NCBI RefSeq assembly: GCF_019711655.1
Contig: NZ_JAIGNU010000004.1
Span: 1-64,000 of the forward strand
Source: Qipengyuania mesophila
GTDB taxonomy: Bacteria; Pseudomonadota; Alphaproteobacteria; Sphingomonadales; Sphingomonadaceae
DNA length: 64,000 nt
Reading direction: 5' to 3'
Each line of letters begins with the position of its first letter. Positions within the stretch are counted from its first letter, which is position 1. The position numbers and the translations under genes are program-made. The notes under the pieces are model-generated. The model did no database searches. It was not told the origin of the DNA and worked only from the letters and a program-made list of their open reading frames with translations. This document shows, in pieces, positions 122 through 17,648 of this stretch.

Positions 122-196
122 TGGTGACCCGTACGGGAATCGAACCCGTGTTTCAGCCGTGAAAGGGCCGCGTCCTAACCGCTAGACGAACGGGCC
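122..196 (-). tRNA. tRNA-Glu (anticodon TTC), copy 2
   Basis: This is a 75-nt tRNA on the minus strand with genomically encoded CCA, a seven-pair acceptor stem (GGCCCGT/ACGGGTC, one G-T pair) and the anticodon loop CTTTCAC. It is base-for-base identical to copy 1, and about 47 bases separate the two. The pair looks like a tandem duplication that raises tRNA-Glu dosage. It is probably co-transcribed with the upstream copy. Confidence 0.96.
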
Positions 197-6474: not shown

Positions 6475-8289
6475 ATGACGCATCCAATGTGGCGCATTGC
6501 CACCTATGGCGCAGTATTTTTCGGCGTCACCTCCTTTACTATCTTCTGGACGCGCTTCGCCGGCGGGCTGGCGCTCGTCTGGCTGGGATCCGCGATCGGC
6601 GCCGCGCTGTTTCTCGCGCTCCCACGTGCGCGCCATCCGCTCGCTGCAGCGATCCTGATAGCCCTCAGCACGCTTGCGACGAGCCTGTTCGGGTTCGGTC
6701 CCACCTGGGCTTTTCCGCTCGCATTGGTCAATATCTTCGAAGCCTGGTTCATCGCCTGGCTGCTGGTGCGGTTCCGGCCTGAGCGCGACTATGTAGACAG
6801 CGCCGCCGGCATCGTTAGCCTCGGTTTTTTTGCTGGGCTCATAGGGCCGGCTACCGCCGCAATTCCGGGTGCCATCATCGTAAGCCAGATCGTCGGCGGG
6901 AATTTGGCGACTCACGCCCTGTCGTGGCTGGTCGGTCATGGCCTCGGTACCATGCTGGCGATGCCGCTCGCGCTGCTGCTGCAATCTTACCGGCGGCTCA
7001 ATTTTGCGCCCTTGCGCGAAGCCGGTCGCACATTGCCCTTTGCGGGCTTGATGCTGCTGAGCATCGGCATCTCTGCTATCGCATTTTTTCAGTCGACCTT
7101 CCCGTCGCTCTTCTTCCCGGTGGTTCCGCTGGTGCTCGCCAGCTTCCGCTTCGGACGGTTCGGAGCTTCGGTCGTTGTGCTTCTGATCTCGATGGCGGCA
7201 GCGGCTTCGCTCGGCATGGAGATTGGAGTTTTCGCCGAACTCGAGATTCCCCTGTGGCAAAAGGCCCTGTTCGTACAGTTCTACCTAGCCACGCTGTTGC
7301 TCATCTCTCTGCCCCTGGCCGTGGCGCTCAAGCAGCGACAGCGCTTTCTCGAGGAACTAATCGATCGCGAAGCCATGCAGCGGCTGATCGCCGACCATTC
7401 GGACGATGCATTGCTGCACCTCGATCAGCACGGGACAATTCGCTTTGCGTCTCCTGCGTCCGCGCGCCTGAGCGGCCGGGAAAGCACCGACGGCATGCAT
7501 CTCGGCGCATTCTTCAGCGATTTCGACAAGCAAGTGGTGTCGGATGCGCTGGACGCCGCTGCCGAATCCCCCGGACGTACAGAGATCGTCGAGCGTTCGG
7601 TGGAACGCGATGGCAAGACGAAGTGGCTCGAAGCCAAGCTCCGGGCGATCGAATCCTCGAAACAACAAACCTCGGCCTACGTCGTCACCATCCGCGACGT
7701 GACCGATCGCAAGCTCGAAGAAATACAGGCTTCGTTCGAAGCGCGCACCGATGCCCTGACCGGCCTGCCGAACCGTCGAGCCTTCCTCGACGAGTTGGAA
7801 GGAAGGCTCGACGTGGCCGAGAAGCAACCCTTCGCCTTTGCCCTGATCGATCTCGATCACTTCAAGCGCGTCAATGATGCCTACGGTCACTCGGTGGGCG
7901 ATTCCGTCCTCAAGGAGGTCGCCGAAATCATGCGCGACAGCACCAATCAGGACTGCTTCTTCGCCCGGCTCGGCGGGGAAGAGTTCGGGATGATTGCGGT
8001 CGGCCCCGCGCTGGAATCCTCGGCGATCATTTCCGAACGGCTGCGGCGCACCATCCAGCAGCATGCCATGACCGACGTCAATGGCGGGAGTTTCTCGGTC
8101 ACGGCGAGCATCGGCATTGCGGTCATCGGCGAACGCTGTAGCACGTCGATGGCCATGCAGGCGGCCGATGGCCCGCTCTATTCGGCCAAAGCCTCGGGCC
8201 GCAATTGCGTTCGTCACGCCCAGGATCTGAAGCGGTTTGCCCAGATCGACGAGCCGCCGCGGAATAAGCCCATCGCTGCCGCCAACTAG
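6475..8289 (+). CDS. MASE1-PAS-GGDEF diguanylate cyclase
   Basis: This 604-residue inner-membrane protein probably makes cyclic di-GMP from two GTP. Residues 1 to about 290 form an eight-plus-helix hydrophobic MASE1-type sensor. A PAS-like segment follows (about 295-420, starting at LIADHSDDALLHLDQHG). The GGDEF domain then starts at DALTGLPNRRAF, contains LIDLDHFKRVNDAYGHSVGD, and has the catalytic GGEEF at residues 500-504. The I-site RxxD expected just upstream is absent (NQDC at that position), so product feedback may be missing. An alternative ATG lies four codons downstream. Confidence 0.93.
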   Translation: MTHPMWRIATYGAVFFGVTSFTIFWTRFAGGLALVWLGSAIGAALFLALPRARHPLAAAILIALSTLATSLFGFGPTWAFPLALVNIFEAWFIAWLLVRFRPERDYVDSAAGIVSLGFFAGLIGPATAAIPGAIIVSQIVGGNLATHALSWLVGHGLGTMLAMPLALLLQSYRRLNFAPLREAGRTLPFAGLMLLSIGISAIAFFQSTFPSLFFPVVPLVLASFRFGRFGASVVVLLISMAAAASLGMEIGVFAELEIPLWQKALFVQFYLATLLLISLPLAVALKQRQRFLEELIDREAMQRLIADHSDDALLHLDQHGTIRFASPASARLSGRESTDGMHLGAFFSDFDKQVVSDALDAAAESPGRTEIVERSVERDGKTKWLEAKLRAIESSKQQTSAYVVTIRDVTDRKLEEIQASFEARTDALTGLPNRRAFLDELEGRLDVAEKQPFAFALIDLDHFKRVNDAYGHSVGDSVLKEVAEIMRDSTNQDCFFARLGGEEFGMIAVGPALESSAIISERLRRTIQQHAMTDVNGGSFSVTASIGIAVIGERCSTSMAMQAADGPLYSAKASGRNCVRHAQDLKRFAQIDEPPRNKPIAAAN

Positions 8290-9968
8290 GTCTTCTCGAA
8301 GGCCGAATTTGCGGCGCTCAACACCGCCCGGACGCTGGCCGTGGCGATGTCTTCGTCGATCCCGCAGCCCCAGATCGTCCGGCTATCCACTGTACGGCAT
8401 TCGAGATAGGCAGCGGCGCGGCTGTCACGGCCGGTGGTCAGCGCGTGCTCGGTGTAGTCGACCACTTCGAGACTGAGCCCGAATGCATTCTCGAGGGTCG
8501 TCAGCACGCTGGAGATCAACCCGTTGCCGCGTCCCGAGACGGTCTGTTCCTGGCCGTCGACTGCGATGGTTCCGGTGAACAGGCGCGTGCCGTCGCTGGC
8601 GCGGCGCTCCTCGTAATCGACCAGCTGGAAATGCTTGGGGTGCGTCTGGACGTGGTAGGCGCTCTTGAAGGCGCTCCAGATGTCCGCAGCGTTGAGTTCG
8701 CGGCCGAGCTCGTCGGCCATTCGCTGGACGTGAGGACTGAAATCGGCCTGCATCTTCTTGGGCAGCTTGAGCCCCTGGTCCTGTTCGAGCACCCAGGCGA
8801 AGCCGCCTTTGCCCGACTGCGAATTGACGCGGATGACCGCTTCGTAACTGCGCCCCAGATCAGCGGGATCGATTGGCAGGTAGGGTACGCGCCAGTGCGG
8901 ATCGTTCTGCGTCTCGAGCGCAGCAAAGCCCTTCTTGATCGCATCCTGGTGGCTACCCGAAAAGGCGGTGTAGACCAGCTCGCCGCCATAGGGATGGCGC
9001 TGGTGTACGGGCAGTTCGTTGCAGAACTCCACCGTCTCGATGACGCGGTCGATGTCAGAGAAGTCGAGCCGTGGATCGACCCCTTGCGTGTACATGTTGA
9101 GCGCCATGGTCACCAGGCAGCAATTGCCGGTGCGTTCGCCATTGCCGAACAGGCAGCCCTCTACCCGGTCGGCGCCCGCCATCAGCGCCAGCTCCGCGGC
9201 CGCCACTCCGGTGCCGCGGTCGTTGTGGGTGTGGAGGCTGATCACCGCGCTCTCGCGGTTGGGCAGGTTGCGGATGAAATATTCGACCTGGTCGGCGTAG
9301 ATATTGGGCGTCGCCGCCTCGACCGTGGCAGGCAGGTTGAGGATGATCGGATGCTCGGGCGTGGGCGCGAGCACTTCCATCACCGCCTCGCAAACCTCGA
9401 GTGAGAAATCGAGTTCGGCGGTCGAGAAGGTCTCCGGCGAATACTGGAAATGCCAGTCGGTGCCGGGCTGCTTGCCCGCCTCATCGCGCATGACCTTGGC
9501 GCCGTGGACCGCGATATCGCGCACCTGATCCCGCGTCATGCCGAATACGACCTCGCGCCAGGCGGGGCTCACCGCATTGTAGAGGTGGACGATCGCCGCC
9601 CGCGCGCCGGTGAGGCTGGCGAAGCTGGTGCGGATGAGGTCTTCGCGGCTCTGGGTGAGCACCTGCACCAGCACGTCGTCGGGCACGCGGCCCGATTGCA
9701 CGAGGCCGGAGATGAAATCGAACTCGGTAGCGCCCGCGCTGGGAAAGCCGACTTCGATTTCCTTCACGCCCACTTCGACGAGCAGGTCGAAGAAGCGGGT
9801 CTTCTTGTGCGCATCCATCGGATCGACGATCGCTTGGTTGCCATCGCGCAAGTCCGTCGAAAGCCAGCGCGGCGGCGCGGTGATGGTGCGCGTGGGCCAT
9901 TGCCGGTCGCTCAAGGGGACCTGCGGAAAGGGCGAATATTTGCTGCTCGGGTCGCGGAGCATGGGCAT
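8286..9968 (-). CDS. leuA: 2-isopropylmalate synthase
   Basis: LeuA condenses acetyl-CoA with 2-ketoisovalerate, the first committed step of leucine synthesis. The 560-residue length and the N-terminus (YSPFPQVPLSDRQWP, then STDLRDGNQAI) indicate the long type-2 form. DLRDGNQ supplies a metal ligand and catalytic residues, LHTHNDRGTG holds the HxH metal pair, and the C-terminal about 130 residues form the leucine-sensing regulatory domain. The 3' end overlaps the convergent cyclase gene by 4 bases. About 80 bases upstream lies a leucine-rich 16-codon ORF with alternative hairpins, described separately, which suggests attenuation. Confidence 0.96.
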   Translation of the reverse strand: MPMLRDPSSKYSPFPQVPLSDRQWPTRTITAPPRWLSTDLRDGNQAIVDPMDAHKKTRFFDLLVEVGVKEIEVGFPSAGATEFDFISGLVQSGRVPDDVLVQVLTQSREDLIRTSFASLTGARAAIVHLYNAVSPAWREVVFGMTRDQVRDIAVHGAKVMRDEAGKQPGTDWHFQYSPETFSTAELDFSLEVCEAVMEVLAPTPEHPIILNLPATVEAATPNIYADQVEYFIRNLPNRESAVISLHTHNDRGTGVAAAELALMAGADRVEGCLFGNGERTGNCCLVTMALNMYTQGVDPRLDFSDIDRVIETVEFCNELPVHQRHPYGGELVYTAFSGSHQDAIKKGFAALETQNDPHWRVPYLPIDPADLGRSYEAVIRVNSQSGKGGFAWVLEQDQGLKLPKKMQADFSPHVQRMADELGRELNAADIWSAFKSAYHVQTHPKHFQLVDYEERRASDGTRLFTGTIAVDGQEQTVSGRGNGLISSVLTTLENAFGLSLEVVDYTEHALTTGRDSRAAAYLECRTVDSRTIWGCGIDEDIATASVRAVLSAANSAFEKT

Positions 9969-10010
9969 CGGAACTCTCGGGTCTTGCGAAGGTCTGGGTT
10001 GGAAATCGGT

Positions 10011-10063
10011 CCCTTGGGCGCTCAGCGCACCCGTGCAGGCACGCCAGCTATCACGCCCAAGGG
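10011..10063 (-). promoter_or_regulatory. Candidate attenuator pairing region of leuA
   Basis: Two perfectly complementary 10-mers lie at 10054-10063 (minus strand CCCTTGGGCG, inside the last codons of the leader ORF) and 10011-10020 (minus strand CGCCCAAGGG). The downstream 10-mer can instead join a local hairpin at 10016-10032 (stem GG-GCGC/GCGC-CC with one bulged T, loop TGA). The two pairings exclude each other, as in classic amino-acid attenuators. No strong U-tract follows the local hairpin, so whether it stops transcription or blocks translation is open. Confidence 0.55.
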
Positions 10064-10101
10064 CGTGTAAGTCGCAGGATAAGGCCGAGCTCTTTGTGCA
10101 T
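10051..10101 (-). CDS. Candidate leuA leader peptide (16 residues)
   Basis: This 16-codon ORF reads MHKELGLILRLTRPWA. Four of residues 5-11 are leucine (codons CTC, CTT, CTG, CTT) and one is isoleucine, as expected of a leader peptide that senses charged leucyl-tRNA. It ends 82 bases before the leuA start. No Shine-Dalgarno is apparent, but a plausible promoter would start transcription almost at the ATG, giving a leaderless leader ORF as is known for trpL of Sinorhizobium. The last codons overlap one arm of an RNA pairing described separately. The call is inference from codon content and position. Confidence 0.6.
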   Translation of the reverse strand: MHKELGLILRLTRPWA

Positions 10102-10108
10102 GACGCTT

Positions 10109-10137
10109 GCTATGCTGGCCCGGCGCAGGGTTGTAAA
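10109..10137 (-). promoter_or_regulatory. Candidate promoter of the leuA leader
   Basis: The minus strand shows TTTACA (10132-10137), a 17-base spacer and CATAGC (10109-10114). Initiation about seven bases on would fall at or next to the A of the leader-peptide ATG at 10101. The boxes are imperfect matches to the sigma-70 consensus. Confidence 0.4.
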
Positions 10138-10193
10138 GCAAAACAGTCTTGGGCATCGCGAGAAATTATATTTCACGTTCGACGGGAGAAAGC

Positions 10194-10616
10194 ATGGCTG
10201 ACGGGCATTCGCTGTATGAAACGATGGGACTGGTGCGGATCGTTTCGACCGATCCCGAAGGCCGCGCCAGCCTCGAATACGAGGCGAAGCGCGAACAGTG
10301 CCATTCGGGCGGGGTTGTGCAGGGGGGCTTCATCAGCGGGTGGATCGATGCCGCGATGGCGCATGCGGCGATGGCCAGGAACGGACAGGGTATCGTACCG
10401 ATGACGCTGGAGCTGAAGGTCAGCTTCTTTGCGCCGACACGGCCGGGACTGGTGGTTGCCGAAGCCTGGGTCGAGCGCCACGGCAAGCGCACGAGCTTCT
10501 ACGAGGGGCATTTGAAGGATGCGAACGGGACGGTGCTGGCCAAGGCGACCAGCACGATCCTGCTCGCCGACGTGTCGCGCGTGGTCGAGGCATCGCGAAA
10601 GGCGACCGGAGGATAG
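10194..10616 (+). CDS. PaaI-family (hot-dog fold) thioesterase
   Basis: A 140-residue single hot-dog-fold protein of the PaaI/YbgC type, which hydrolyses acyl-CoA thioesters. The CHSGGVVQGGFISGWIDAAM block is the conserved nucleotide/active-site helix region, and LELKVSFFAPTRPG is the typical central strand. The ATG at 10194 is preceded by GGGAGAA at good spacing, so this start is preferred to the in-frame ATG at 10149. Its stop lies 2 bases before the next ATG, so it is very likely co-transcribed with the epoxide hydrolase. The substrate is unknown. Confidence 0.88.
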   Translation: MADGHSLYETMGLVRIVSTDPEGRASLEYEAKREQCHSGGVVQGGFISGWIDAAMAHAAMARNGQGIVPMTLELKVSFFAPTRPGLVVAEAWVERHGKRTSFYEGHLKDANGTVLAKATSTILLADVSRVVEASRKATGG

Positions 10617-15790: not shown

Positions 15791-17541
15791 CACACCAGTG
15801 CCTTCGCTTCGTCGTCCATCGTCCCCTCGACCAGGTCGCCGTAGAGCAGCATGTCGGTATGCGCCGCTCCGCTGGGGATCATCGGGAAACAGTTCGCTTC
15901 CTTCGCCACCTGGCAATCGACCATCACCGGTCCGTCATGCGCGAGCATGGCTTCGATCCCGGCATCGAGCTGGCTTTCGTCTTCGATCCGGATGCCCTTC
16001 CAGCCATAGGCTTCGGCAAGCTTCACGAAGTCCGGCAAGGAATCGCTGTAACTGTTTGAATAACGGCTTTCATAGGTCAGCTCCTGCCACTGGCGAACCA
16101 TGCCCATATATTCGTTGTTGAGGATGAAGACCTTGACCGGCAGGCGGTACTGGCTCGCCGTCCCCAGTTCCTGGATGTTCATCTGGATGCTGGCTTCGCC
16201 TGCGATGTCGATCACCAGCCGACCGGGATTACCGAGCTGCGCGCCGATCGCCGCGGGAAGGCCGTAACCCATGGTGCCGAGGCCGCCGCTGGTGAGCCAC
16301 CGGTTGGGCGCAGAGAAGCCGAAATATTGCGCCGCCCACATCTGGTGCTGGCCGACTTCGGTGGTGATGATGGGATCGCGGTCCTGCGTCAGCGCGAAGA
16401 GACGTTCGATGCTCTTCTGTGGCATGATCAAGTCGCTTCCGCGGTCGGGATAGGCGAGGCAATCGCGTGCCTTCCAGCCGAGGATACGCGCCTTCCATTC
16501 GGAGAGGTCCTGTGGCTTGCGACCGCCCCAGCATTCGAGCAGCTGGTCGAGCACATGCGCGCAGTCGCCGACGATGCCGAGATCGACGGGGACGATCTTG
16601 TTGATGCTCGCCCGGTCGATGTCGATGTGGACCTTCTTTGCTTCGGGCGCGAAGGCATCGAGCCGTCCGGTAACCCGGTCGTCGAACCGCGCACCCACTG
16701 CGATGATGAGGTCGGCGCGGTTCATCGCCATATTGGCTTCGTAGGTGCCGTGCATGCCGAGCATGCCGAGCCAGTCGGGATGGTCGGCCGGGAAAGCGCC
16801 GAGGCCCATCAGCGTGCTGGTGACCGGGGCGCCGGTGGCGTGCTGCAGTCTGCGCAACAGCTCGGAAGCGCGGGGCCCGGCATTGATCACCCCGCCGCCG
16901 GTATAGAACACTGGGCGCTCGGCTGCGGCGAGCATGGCCACGGTCTCGGCGATCTCGTCGGCCGCGCCGACCATACGCGGCTGGTAGCGATGCGAGGGGA
17001 GGGGCCTGTCGTCCTGCGCGTCCCAGCTCGCGAGCGCGATCTGCACATCCTTGGGGATGTCGACAACCACCGGGCCGGGGCGACCGGTGGTGGCTATGCG
17101 AAAAGCCTCCTCGATCGTTGCGCCGAGGCGCTCGGGGTCCTTCACGAGGTAATTGTGCTTGGTACAGTGACGCGTCAGACCGACCGTATCGGCTTCCTGG
17201 AAGGCGTCGGTGCCGATCAGCGCGGTCGGCACCTGCCCGGTAATCACCACCAGCGGGATCGAATCCATATAGGCGTCGGCGATGCCGGTGACCGCATTGG
17301 TCGCGCCGGGGCCGCTGGTGACGAGCACCACGCCGGGCTTGCCGGTCGATCGGGCATAGCCTTCGGCGGCATGCGCCGCACCGGCTTCGTGGCGCACGAG
17401 GATGTGGCGGATTTCTTTGTCGGCAAAGAGCTCGTCATAGATCGGCAGCACTGCGCCGCCGGGATATCCGAAGACGAATTCGACATCCTGCCGCTTGAGG
17501 CATTCGATCAGGATTGCAGCGCCGCTGCGCTCGGTACTCAC
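15790..17541 (-). CDS. ilvB: Acetolactate synthase, catalytic large subunit
   Basis: IlvB is a thiamine-diphosphate enzyme that makes acetolactate from pyruvate, the first step to valine and leucine. The protein is 583 residues. [17 protein letters not shown], the catalytic Glu in [16 protein letters not shown], and a TPP-binding region ending in [12 protein letters not shown] are all present. The acidic TPP-motif residue appears as GEAS rather than GDGS. The start is the GTG at 17541, which has GGAGG 6 bases upstream; an in-frame ATG at 17634 is less likely. It leads ilvB-small ORF-ilvH-ilvC. Confidence 0.96.
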
Positions 17542-17581
17542 ACCAACCTCCGACCCGTTCGGGGCTCTGAAAGACACAAAT

Positions 17582-17614
17582 CGGCCCGGCGCTGGGGTCT
17601 GGAGCGCCGGGCCG
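17582..17614 (-). promoter_or_regulatory. Perfect 12-bp hairpin in the ilvB leader
   Basis: Arms 17582-17593 and 17603-17614 are exact inverted complements (CGGCCCGGCGCT/AGCGCCGGGCCG) around a 9-base loop. On the ilvB strand the hairpin is followed by a moderately T-rich run (ATTTGTGTCTTT), so it could be a leaky terminator or attenuator. A TTGACC box, 17 bases and TATTTC lie just upstream on the same strand, near 17630-17655. No leader peptide is evident. Confidence 0.6.
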
Positions 17615-17648
17615 ACTGGTTCGGAAATAGGCATTGTGAATTACGCGG

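Follow-up and report, generated by a model that had tools for sequence, protein, structure and literature searches.

The leuA gene of Qipengyuania mesophila is preceded by a short, leucine-rich reading frame, which raises the question of whether this leader controls leuA and, if it does, by what mechanism. The locus lies on the reverse strand of the stretch of DNA analysed here, which is 64,000 nucleotides long and is called the window below; the coordinates of its features are collected in Table 1. The initial annotation had described a 16-codon leucine-rich leader ORF upstream of leuA, and the ORF, its coordinates, and its leucine codons were all confirmed. Read from 10101 to 10051, the ORF encodes the peptide MHKELGLILRLTRPWA followed by a stop, with the leucine codons CTC, CTT, CTG, and CTT at codons 5, 7, 9, and 11. 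The downstream gene encodes a LeuA protein of 560 residues that scores above the TIGR00970 cut-off, and this protein was used as the query for homologues in relatives. Among 37 genomes of the same genus, including that of the window, 33 were examined, the others either having no LeuA match (G004 and G006), a 27% match (G001), or a truncated gene (G013). The typical feature of an amino-acid leader, a short ORF rich in leucine codons immediately 5' of leuA, was found in all 33 loci, where the leader ended in LRL(T/S/I/M)RP(W/R)A-stop and the distance from its stop to leuA was 77 to 87 nt. In 147 leaders, 329 of the 1095 variable-part codons (30%) were for leucine, against 277 of about 3,055 codons in seven genes of the window, which supports the claim of a leucine leader. 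In this set of 147, the CGA codon, the CUU or CUA codon, and the following A were fixed by the selecting motif, and the unconstrained counts for these positions are those from the 100 family loci and 28 class-wide loci given below.

Table 1. Features of the leuA leader region in the window
Feature	Position	Strand	Details
-35-like box TTTACA	10132..10137	(-)	103/161 unique leaders have T at -36 from the ATG, and 103/161 at -35
-10-like box CATAGC	10109..10114	(-)	7 nt ahead of the leader ATG; A at -12 in 106/161
Leader ORF	10051..10101	(-)	16 codons + UGA; no visible GAG-type SD ahead
Outer leader strand GAGCUC	10087..10092	(-)	Codons 4-5, including Leu codon 5; partner 9971-9976; minimum-energy fold and swap test
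Inner leader strand	10072..10079	(-)	Codons 8-10, including Leu codon 9; partner 9982-9989; fold and complement enrichment
Arm A	10053..10063	(-)	Last base of Arg codon 13, Pro, Trp, and Ala codons, first stop base; fold and covariation
Inner hairpin B:B'	10023..10045	(-)	Between A and A'; fold; loop MFE mean z -1.6 in 95 representatives
Arm A'	10011..10021	(-)	Pairs with arm A; fold and covariation
UCGCA-containing partner of 10072-10079	9982..9989	(-)	Fold and complement enrichment
GAGUUC, partner of 10087-10092	9971..9976	(-)	Overlaps the presumed leuA SD GAGAG (9974-9978); minimum-energy fold
leuA, 2-isopropylmalate synthase, TIGR00970 (leuA_yeast) type	8286..9968	(-)	793.1 bits; cut-off 697.4

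Folded singly, the leader was ordinary: 67 of 200 shuffles were as stable as the region 9966–10110, and 26 of 200 were as stable as 9960–10101. The case therefore depends on comparison. For the comparison within the family, a relaxed element was defined as a CTN codon followed three codons later by CCN, together with a stem in which 9 or more of the 10 positions pair, and this element was present upstream of leuA in all 100 fetched same-family loci with the window's LeuA type (33 from the same genus and 67 from LeuA homologue matches). Applied to controls, the same search gave 23 hits in 500 shuffles and 6 in 100 reverse complements, and in these sequence comparisons it is conservation that raises the element above chance. 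Although the search demanded only CTN, the leucine codon three before the proline was CUU in 91 loci and CUA in nine, codons that together account for only 14 of the 277 leucine codons in the seven window genes. It was directly preceded by CGA in 100 of 100 loci and followed by an A in 99 of 100, the residue encoded there varying, and the residue before the proline was arginine in 99. The codon after the proline was UGG in 72 loci, UAG in 22, CGG in four, and UAA and CAG in one each. An earlier, strict motif had missed all 17 low-identity loci (L034–L050) and four same-family loci (L054, L057, L087, and L106). The latter were recovered by the relaxed test, and the covariance model R1 matched two of the 17 missed stretches (in genomes G045 and G048), so the strict expression undercounts. 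The near-invariance of CGA CUU A (10068–10074 (-) in the window) is not accounted for by the pairings found.

Two complementary 10-mers had been reported in and after the leader, and their perfect match was verified: arm A (CCCUUGGGCG, 10054–10063) is complementary to arm A' (CGCCCAAGGG, 10011–10020), the letters CCCTTGGGCG and CGCCCAAGGG at these positions being exact reverse complements. Pairing of A with A' at 9 or more of 10 positions occurred in 212 of 215 strict-motif loci, a set that includes motif-picked loci and is not deduplicated; the remaining three had 6, 7, and 8 pairs. The arms change in a compensatory manner among the relatives. In the 212 loci, the sixth pair was G-C in 138, A-U in 73, and G-U in one, and the fourth was U-A in 179, C-G in 26, U-G in five, and C-A in two, while in L025, from the same genus, the arms read CCCCCGGG and CCGGGGG, so that the peptide has Arg for Trp and the pairing is retained. 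In an alignment of 39 sequences, 97.4% of the arm cells were paired, the covariation score exceeded those of all 500 shuffles, and 32 cells carried double changes against 9.8 in the shuffles (0 of 500 as high). Two coarser counts in the same alignment were not above chance, namely the pairs with a double change (3 against 2.2, 159 of 500 shuffles) and the further pair types (8 against 9.5, 500 of 500). When the arms of different loci were swapped, A matched its own A' far better (z -15.2; 0 of 3000 permutations as good; 123 representatives). A local hairpin at 10016–10032 had also been proposed as an alternative to A:A'. The sequence is there (GCGC-TGA-GCGC at 10018–10028), whereas its role as a switch partner found little or no support: the permutation fraction for this B':A' hairpin was 0.034 for the whole set; split by type, it was 0.0115 for the 43 representatives of the UGG-type group and 0.82 for the 52 of the UAG group. 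The hairpin was rejected as an antagonist of A:A'. The inner hairpin B (mean z -1.6) is better conserved than the local hairpin, which is at best weakly conserved. With the local hairpin weak or absent, the competitor of the pairings would therefore be the ribosome itself.

The leader ORF also pairs, by computation, with the region preceding leuA. In the minimum-energy fold of the window, leucine codon 5 is paired with part of the presumed SD GAGAG, and the leader's 5' end is base-paired to the UG of the leuA AUG. The duplex energy between the leader and the pre-leuA region was -19.0 for a locus's own partner and -15.3 for swapped partners (135 representatives), and the corresponding values outside the family were -24.3 and -21.3, with a leader-by-spacer z of -5.2 (44 loci). 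Among 123 representatives, the own-versus-swap signal was z -13.1 for the leader with the SD region (0 of 3000 permutations as good) and -5.4 for the leader with the upstream spacer. No signal was obtained for the leader with the inner loop (z +1.0) or the leuA coding start (z -1.2), nor for the spacer with A (z +2.2) or A' (z +1.7), and the loop gave weak values with the spacer (z -2.9, 4 of 3000) and the SD region (z -1.7, 158 of 3000). These swap tests retain shared ancestry, and the negative controls share that ancestry too. Along the sequence, pairing to the leader in 83 short-spacer loci peaked between -21 and -7 of the leuA start, at 0.39–0.53 for own and 0.20–0.26 for swapped partners, with no gain of own over swapped at or after the start codon. 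The difference was smaller in 40 long-spacer loci (0.41–0.45 against 0.26–0.41 at -18 to -10), a possible reason being the similarity of their SD regions to one another.

Matching changes in the two strands point in the same direction. Among the 85 of 162 loci that have both a CGG in the leader and a CCG near the SD, the dinucleotide before the former matched the one after the latter in 38 and did not in 47, against a mean of 13.3 and a maximum of 26 in 2000 permutations; CU, AU, and AA in the leader corresponded to AG (14), AU (12), and UU (8) near the SD. Perfect complements of six or more bases between the core codons and the spacer were enriched (59 loci of 196, where 17.8 were expected) without being the rule, and the wobble-matched GTCGnA cases (14 matched of 25) were too few to carry weight. 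Computationally, pairing of the leuA SD within the leader is thus supported. In three long-spacer relatives (L090, L101, and L228), an extra hairpin with CUUGCC stands just before the SD GCGATAAGG upstream of leuA and perhaps forms a second control layer.

The pairing of the leader with the SD bears on the level at which leuA might be controlled. In transcription attenuation, A:A' would stop transcription when leucine is ample, either as an intrinsic terminator whose U-tract is poor or through Rho, with the C-rich spacer as its target. The A:A' stem, long and GC-rich, spans the leader stop, Rho loading is conceivable on a spacer of 37% C and 20% G, and transcription attenuation of ilv operons is described for Caulobacter (PMC4117421). 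However, Ts made up a fraction of 0.175 of the 9 nt following A' and 0.166 of the rest of the spacer, and a consensus scan of 9900–10300 in the window found no intrinsic terminator. An intrinsic terminator with a U-tract was rejected, since only 3 of 162 spacers contained five or more Ts in eight positions, and transcription attenuation does not explain the pairing of the leader with the SD. We regard it as unlikely. Because the U-tract is absent and the leader ORF pairs with the leuA SD, the mechanism is best read as translational. The initial annotation had proposed a leucine-responsive attenuator and left its mechanism open; the leucine leader and the covarying arms bear out the proposal in part, and the open part can now be given this translational reading.

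We consider it probable, from the sequence comparisons and the folding models, that the leader is a leucine-responsive translational attenuator of leuA in which the leader ORF itself would be the anti-SD strand. Transcription would begin with the A of the leader AUG or close to it. Once A' has been synthesized, A:A' and the inner hairpin would close, a step supported by the covariation, and would place the SD region of leuA beside the leader ORF, whose codons, several of them for leucine, would then pair with it, as the swap tests and covariation support. The sensing of leucine, the stalling, and the release of the SD we infer: with leucyl-tRNA scarce, a ribosome halted on the leucine codons would cover the strand and free the SD, allowing leuA to be translated, and with leucine ample, the ribosome would end at the stop codon in or just after arm A and depart, letting the RNA refold and mask the SD. 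In the models, the mean accessibility of the SD window was 0.44 for the free RNA, 0.56 and 0.52 with a ribosome on the first and second conserved leucine codons, and 0.46 with a ribosome on the leader stop codon; the swap controls gave 0.50 for the free RNA and 0.55 and 0.53 for the two leucine codons. With a ribosome on the second leucine codon, 53% of 123 loci gained more than 0.05 in accessibility and 19% lost; in the swap controls, 36% gained. The modelled masking is therefore moderate, and the effect of stalling on the SD in silico is modest. Such modest changes, and the fact that any translation of the leader would open the pairing, would also fit a leader whose translation merely keeps the leuA SD open and senses no leucine. 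This we judge to be quite improbable, given the leucine content of the variable leader codons and the use of CUU or CUA three codons before the proline in every one of the 100 family loci, where the search had demanded CTN rather than these two codons.

Having found the element throughout the family, we looked at its spread in the class. A motif scan of a genome collection, which selects on the motif itself, gave at least 119 stretches, 80 of them with names. The matches listed were mostly records of Sphingomonadaceae and of Acetobacteraceae or Rhodospirillales, and they also included metagenome bins with other or broader names (e.g., Mesorhizobium, Actinobacteria, and Acidobacteria). In 112 of the 119 listed stretches, tblastn found leuA within 350 nt downstream, of the window's type in 86 and of a second, distant type in 26. 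Among the other seven, three (L156, L180, and L210) have a LeuA1 signature downstream, the stored DNA of three (L122, L125, and L224) ends before leuA could appear, and one (L149) has neither the partner arm nor leuA. The distant LeuA type passed TIGR00973 in the four cases tested (L131, L143, L120, and L244). The covariance model matched at least 31 of 385 genomes of the class, 26 of them outside the family, a lower bound owing to strict filters, and leuA lay within 500 nt in all 25 fetched loci outside the family.

When LeuA1 genes were taken as the starting point, 44 of 90 upstream regions across the class carried the element by either of two criteria (28 each), both set after the hits were known, and 46 did not; among the controls, 4 of 900 dinucleotide-shuffled sequences scored, as did 2 of the 90 reverse complements. 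Four loci with the codon motif and 7 of 9 stem pairs (L297, L304, L309, and L353) were scored as misses. The 90 regions were drawn from 102 listed matches, the other 12 being second copies, some rows of the same genus, one other row, and truncated matches; two of these 12 (G515 and G548) have R1 matches. The stop codon followed immediately after the proline codon, within arm A, in 39 of the 44 class-wide loci. In the 28 loci found with the criterion that fixes no codon there, the codon three before the proline was CUU in 27 and the next base A in 27, with CGA ahead in 14. Of the 118 genomes searched in the order, 36 matched at E<=0.01; the window's family accounts for 31 of these and other families for five. 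In a search of the phylum, six of 150 genomes matched, all of the window's family, and the 20 non-matches listed were all of the same class, so this search says little about other classes.

These class-wide data also bear on the peptide. TnaC is a peptide-specific arrest leader, and the LRLxRP ending could mark a leader of that kind or a peptide that acts in trans, as the initial annotation had suggested. Within the family, the constant CGA arginine codon (100 of 100) and the arginine before the proline (99 of 100) would suit such a role. Across the class, the residue before the proline is variable (R, C, N, S, V, G, D, H, or F in the 44 loci), CGA is present in only half of the leaders found without demanding it (14 of 28), and the codon after CUU or CUA keeps its first base although its residue varies. 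On both sides of the proline the ending varies across the class, and peptide-specific arrest is disfavoured. The suggestion of action in trans likewise found no support, since the C-terminal W is replaced by R or a stop while compensating changes keep the RNA pairing. We give an arrest or trans-acting peptide hardly any credence.

TTTACA and CATAGC boxes pointing at the ATG of the leader, with a possible leaderless start, had been noted earlier, and both boxes were found as described, 17 nt apart. In 161 unique leaders, the promoter-like positions suit leaderless initiation (Table 1), with a C at -1 of the ATG in 115. GAG occurred at -18 to -4 of the leader ATG in 14 of the 161, against 107 of 161 leuA starts; AGGA, GGAG, GAGG, and AAGG did not separate the two (17 against 23 of 161). 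A scan with an E. coli-type consensus found no promoter at the leader. According to PMC8407463, most of the alphaproteobacterial sigma-70 promoters analysed lack a T at -7, and the CATAGC box, which has no final T, agrees with this. Judging from the promoter-like positions, +1 probably coincides with the A of the leader AUG or lies close to it, so that the leader may be leaderless. Within the one genus (L001–L033), the same leader occurs in two promoter contexts, TTTACA...CATAGC and CTTG...TTGCGCAATGCA, the latter with a palindrome TTGCGCAA that may be a regulator site.

Several known systems resemble this leader in part. The enteric leu leader (Rfam RF00512) is a leucine-codon leader before leuA. 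The leader in the window differs from it in having no intrinsic terminator and no match in Rfam 15, where neither this leader nor those of ten relatives reached the gathering score and one weak hit fell far below the threshold. In ermC-type drug-inducible translational attenuators, a ribosome stalled in the leader ORF frees the SD; here, the leader ORF itself pairs with the SD, and the signal would be leucyl-tRNA. The trpL leader of Sinorhizobium (PMC10117765) is a tryptophan attenuator that also yields a small RNA, its leader ORF being leaderless and read from the first AUG of the transcript. Both are alphaproteobacterial leader ORFs upstream of a biosynthetic gene, and the present one, too, may be read from the first AUG of its transcript.

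The actinobacterial LEU element, also upstream of leuA, is the nearest described system; its source (PMC1262725) presents it as a pseudoknot that shares its base stem with an alternative hairpin. From what is given there, the two have in common that the leucine-codon run of the leader ORF pairs with the SD of leuA and that no terminator is given. Since the LEU element shares this base stem, the present leader is classed with ribosome-mediated attenuation. The leader in the window, unlike the LEU element as presented there, has a nested A:A' stem over the leader stop and an inner hairpin B, and it is possibly leaderless. As for the pseudoknot, the loop signals here were the weak ones above (z -2.9 with the spacer, -1.7 with the SD region), set beside the LEU element by description alone. 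The authors of PMC1262725 were sceptical that translation of the leader is the signal and suggested instead that a protein binds the element.

A search of the open literature, by titles and the starts of abstracts, found no description of an alphaproteobacterial leuA leader of this kind, and a subscription paper could contain one. A much broader reading, which we advance tentatively as possible rather than probable, is that the element represents a regulator spread across the alphaproteobacterial class and not described before: a leaderless ORF beginning with the very first nucleotide of the mRNA would serve as leucine sensor and as anti-SD strand at once. In such a regulator, 70S initiation at the start of the transcript and leucyl-tRNA would jointly gate leuA, and the element would have outlived a swap to a distant LeuA type and resemble the actinobacterial LEU element through homology or convergence. 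If true, a translational switch for leucine biosynthesis would exist in a large bacterial class, one distinct from the enteric attenuator and absent from Rfam 15, and leaderless translation would be tied to amino-acid sensing. It would also suggest that a regulatory RNA was kept while its enzyme was exchanged, and would reopen the question of the LEU element, namely whether leader translation is the signal when leucine codons pair with the SD of leuA, with covariation measurable here.

Branched-chain amino-acid leaders also occur elsewhere in the same class as the leader in the window, alphaproteobacterial ilv attenuators reportedly having been treated by Vitreschak in 2004. PMC4117421 presents them as attenuating the transcription of acetolactate synthase genes, and its text contains neither "isopropylmalate" nor "leucine". 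The window has an acetolactate synthase ORF of its own, and at 17540–17634 (-) its start is probably later than the first ATG; its best family matches begin at residues 29–42, and GGAGG precedes an in-frame GTG. The stretch before this GTG contains a strong GC hairpin and then ATTTGTGTCTTT. This could represent either an N-terminal extension or a further attenuator. At the edge of the window, two adjacent tRNA genes (3–74 and 125–196 (-)) have identical Rfam scores.
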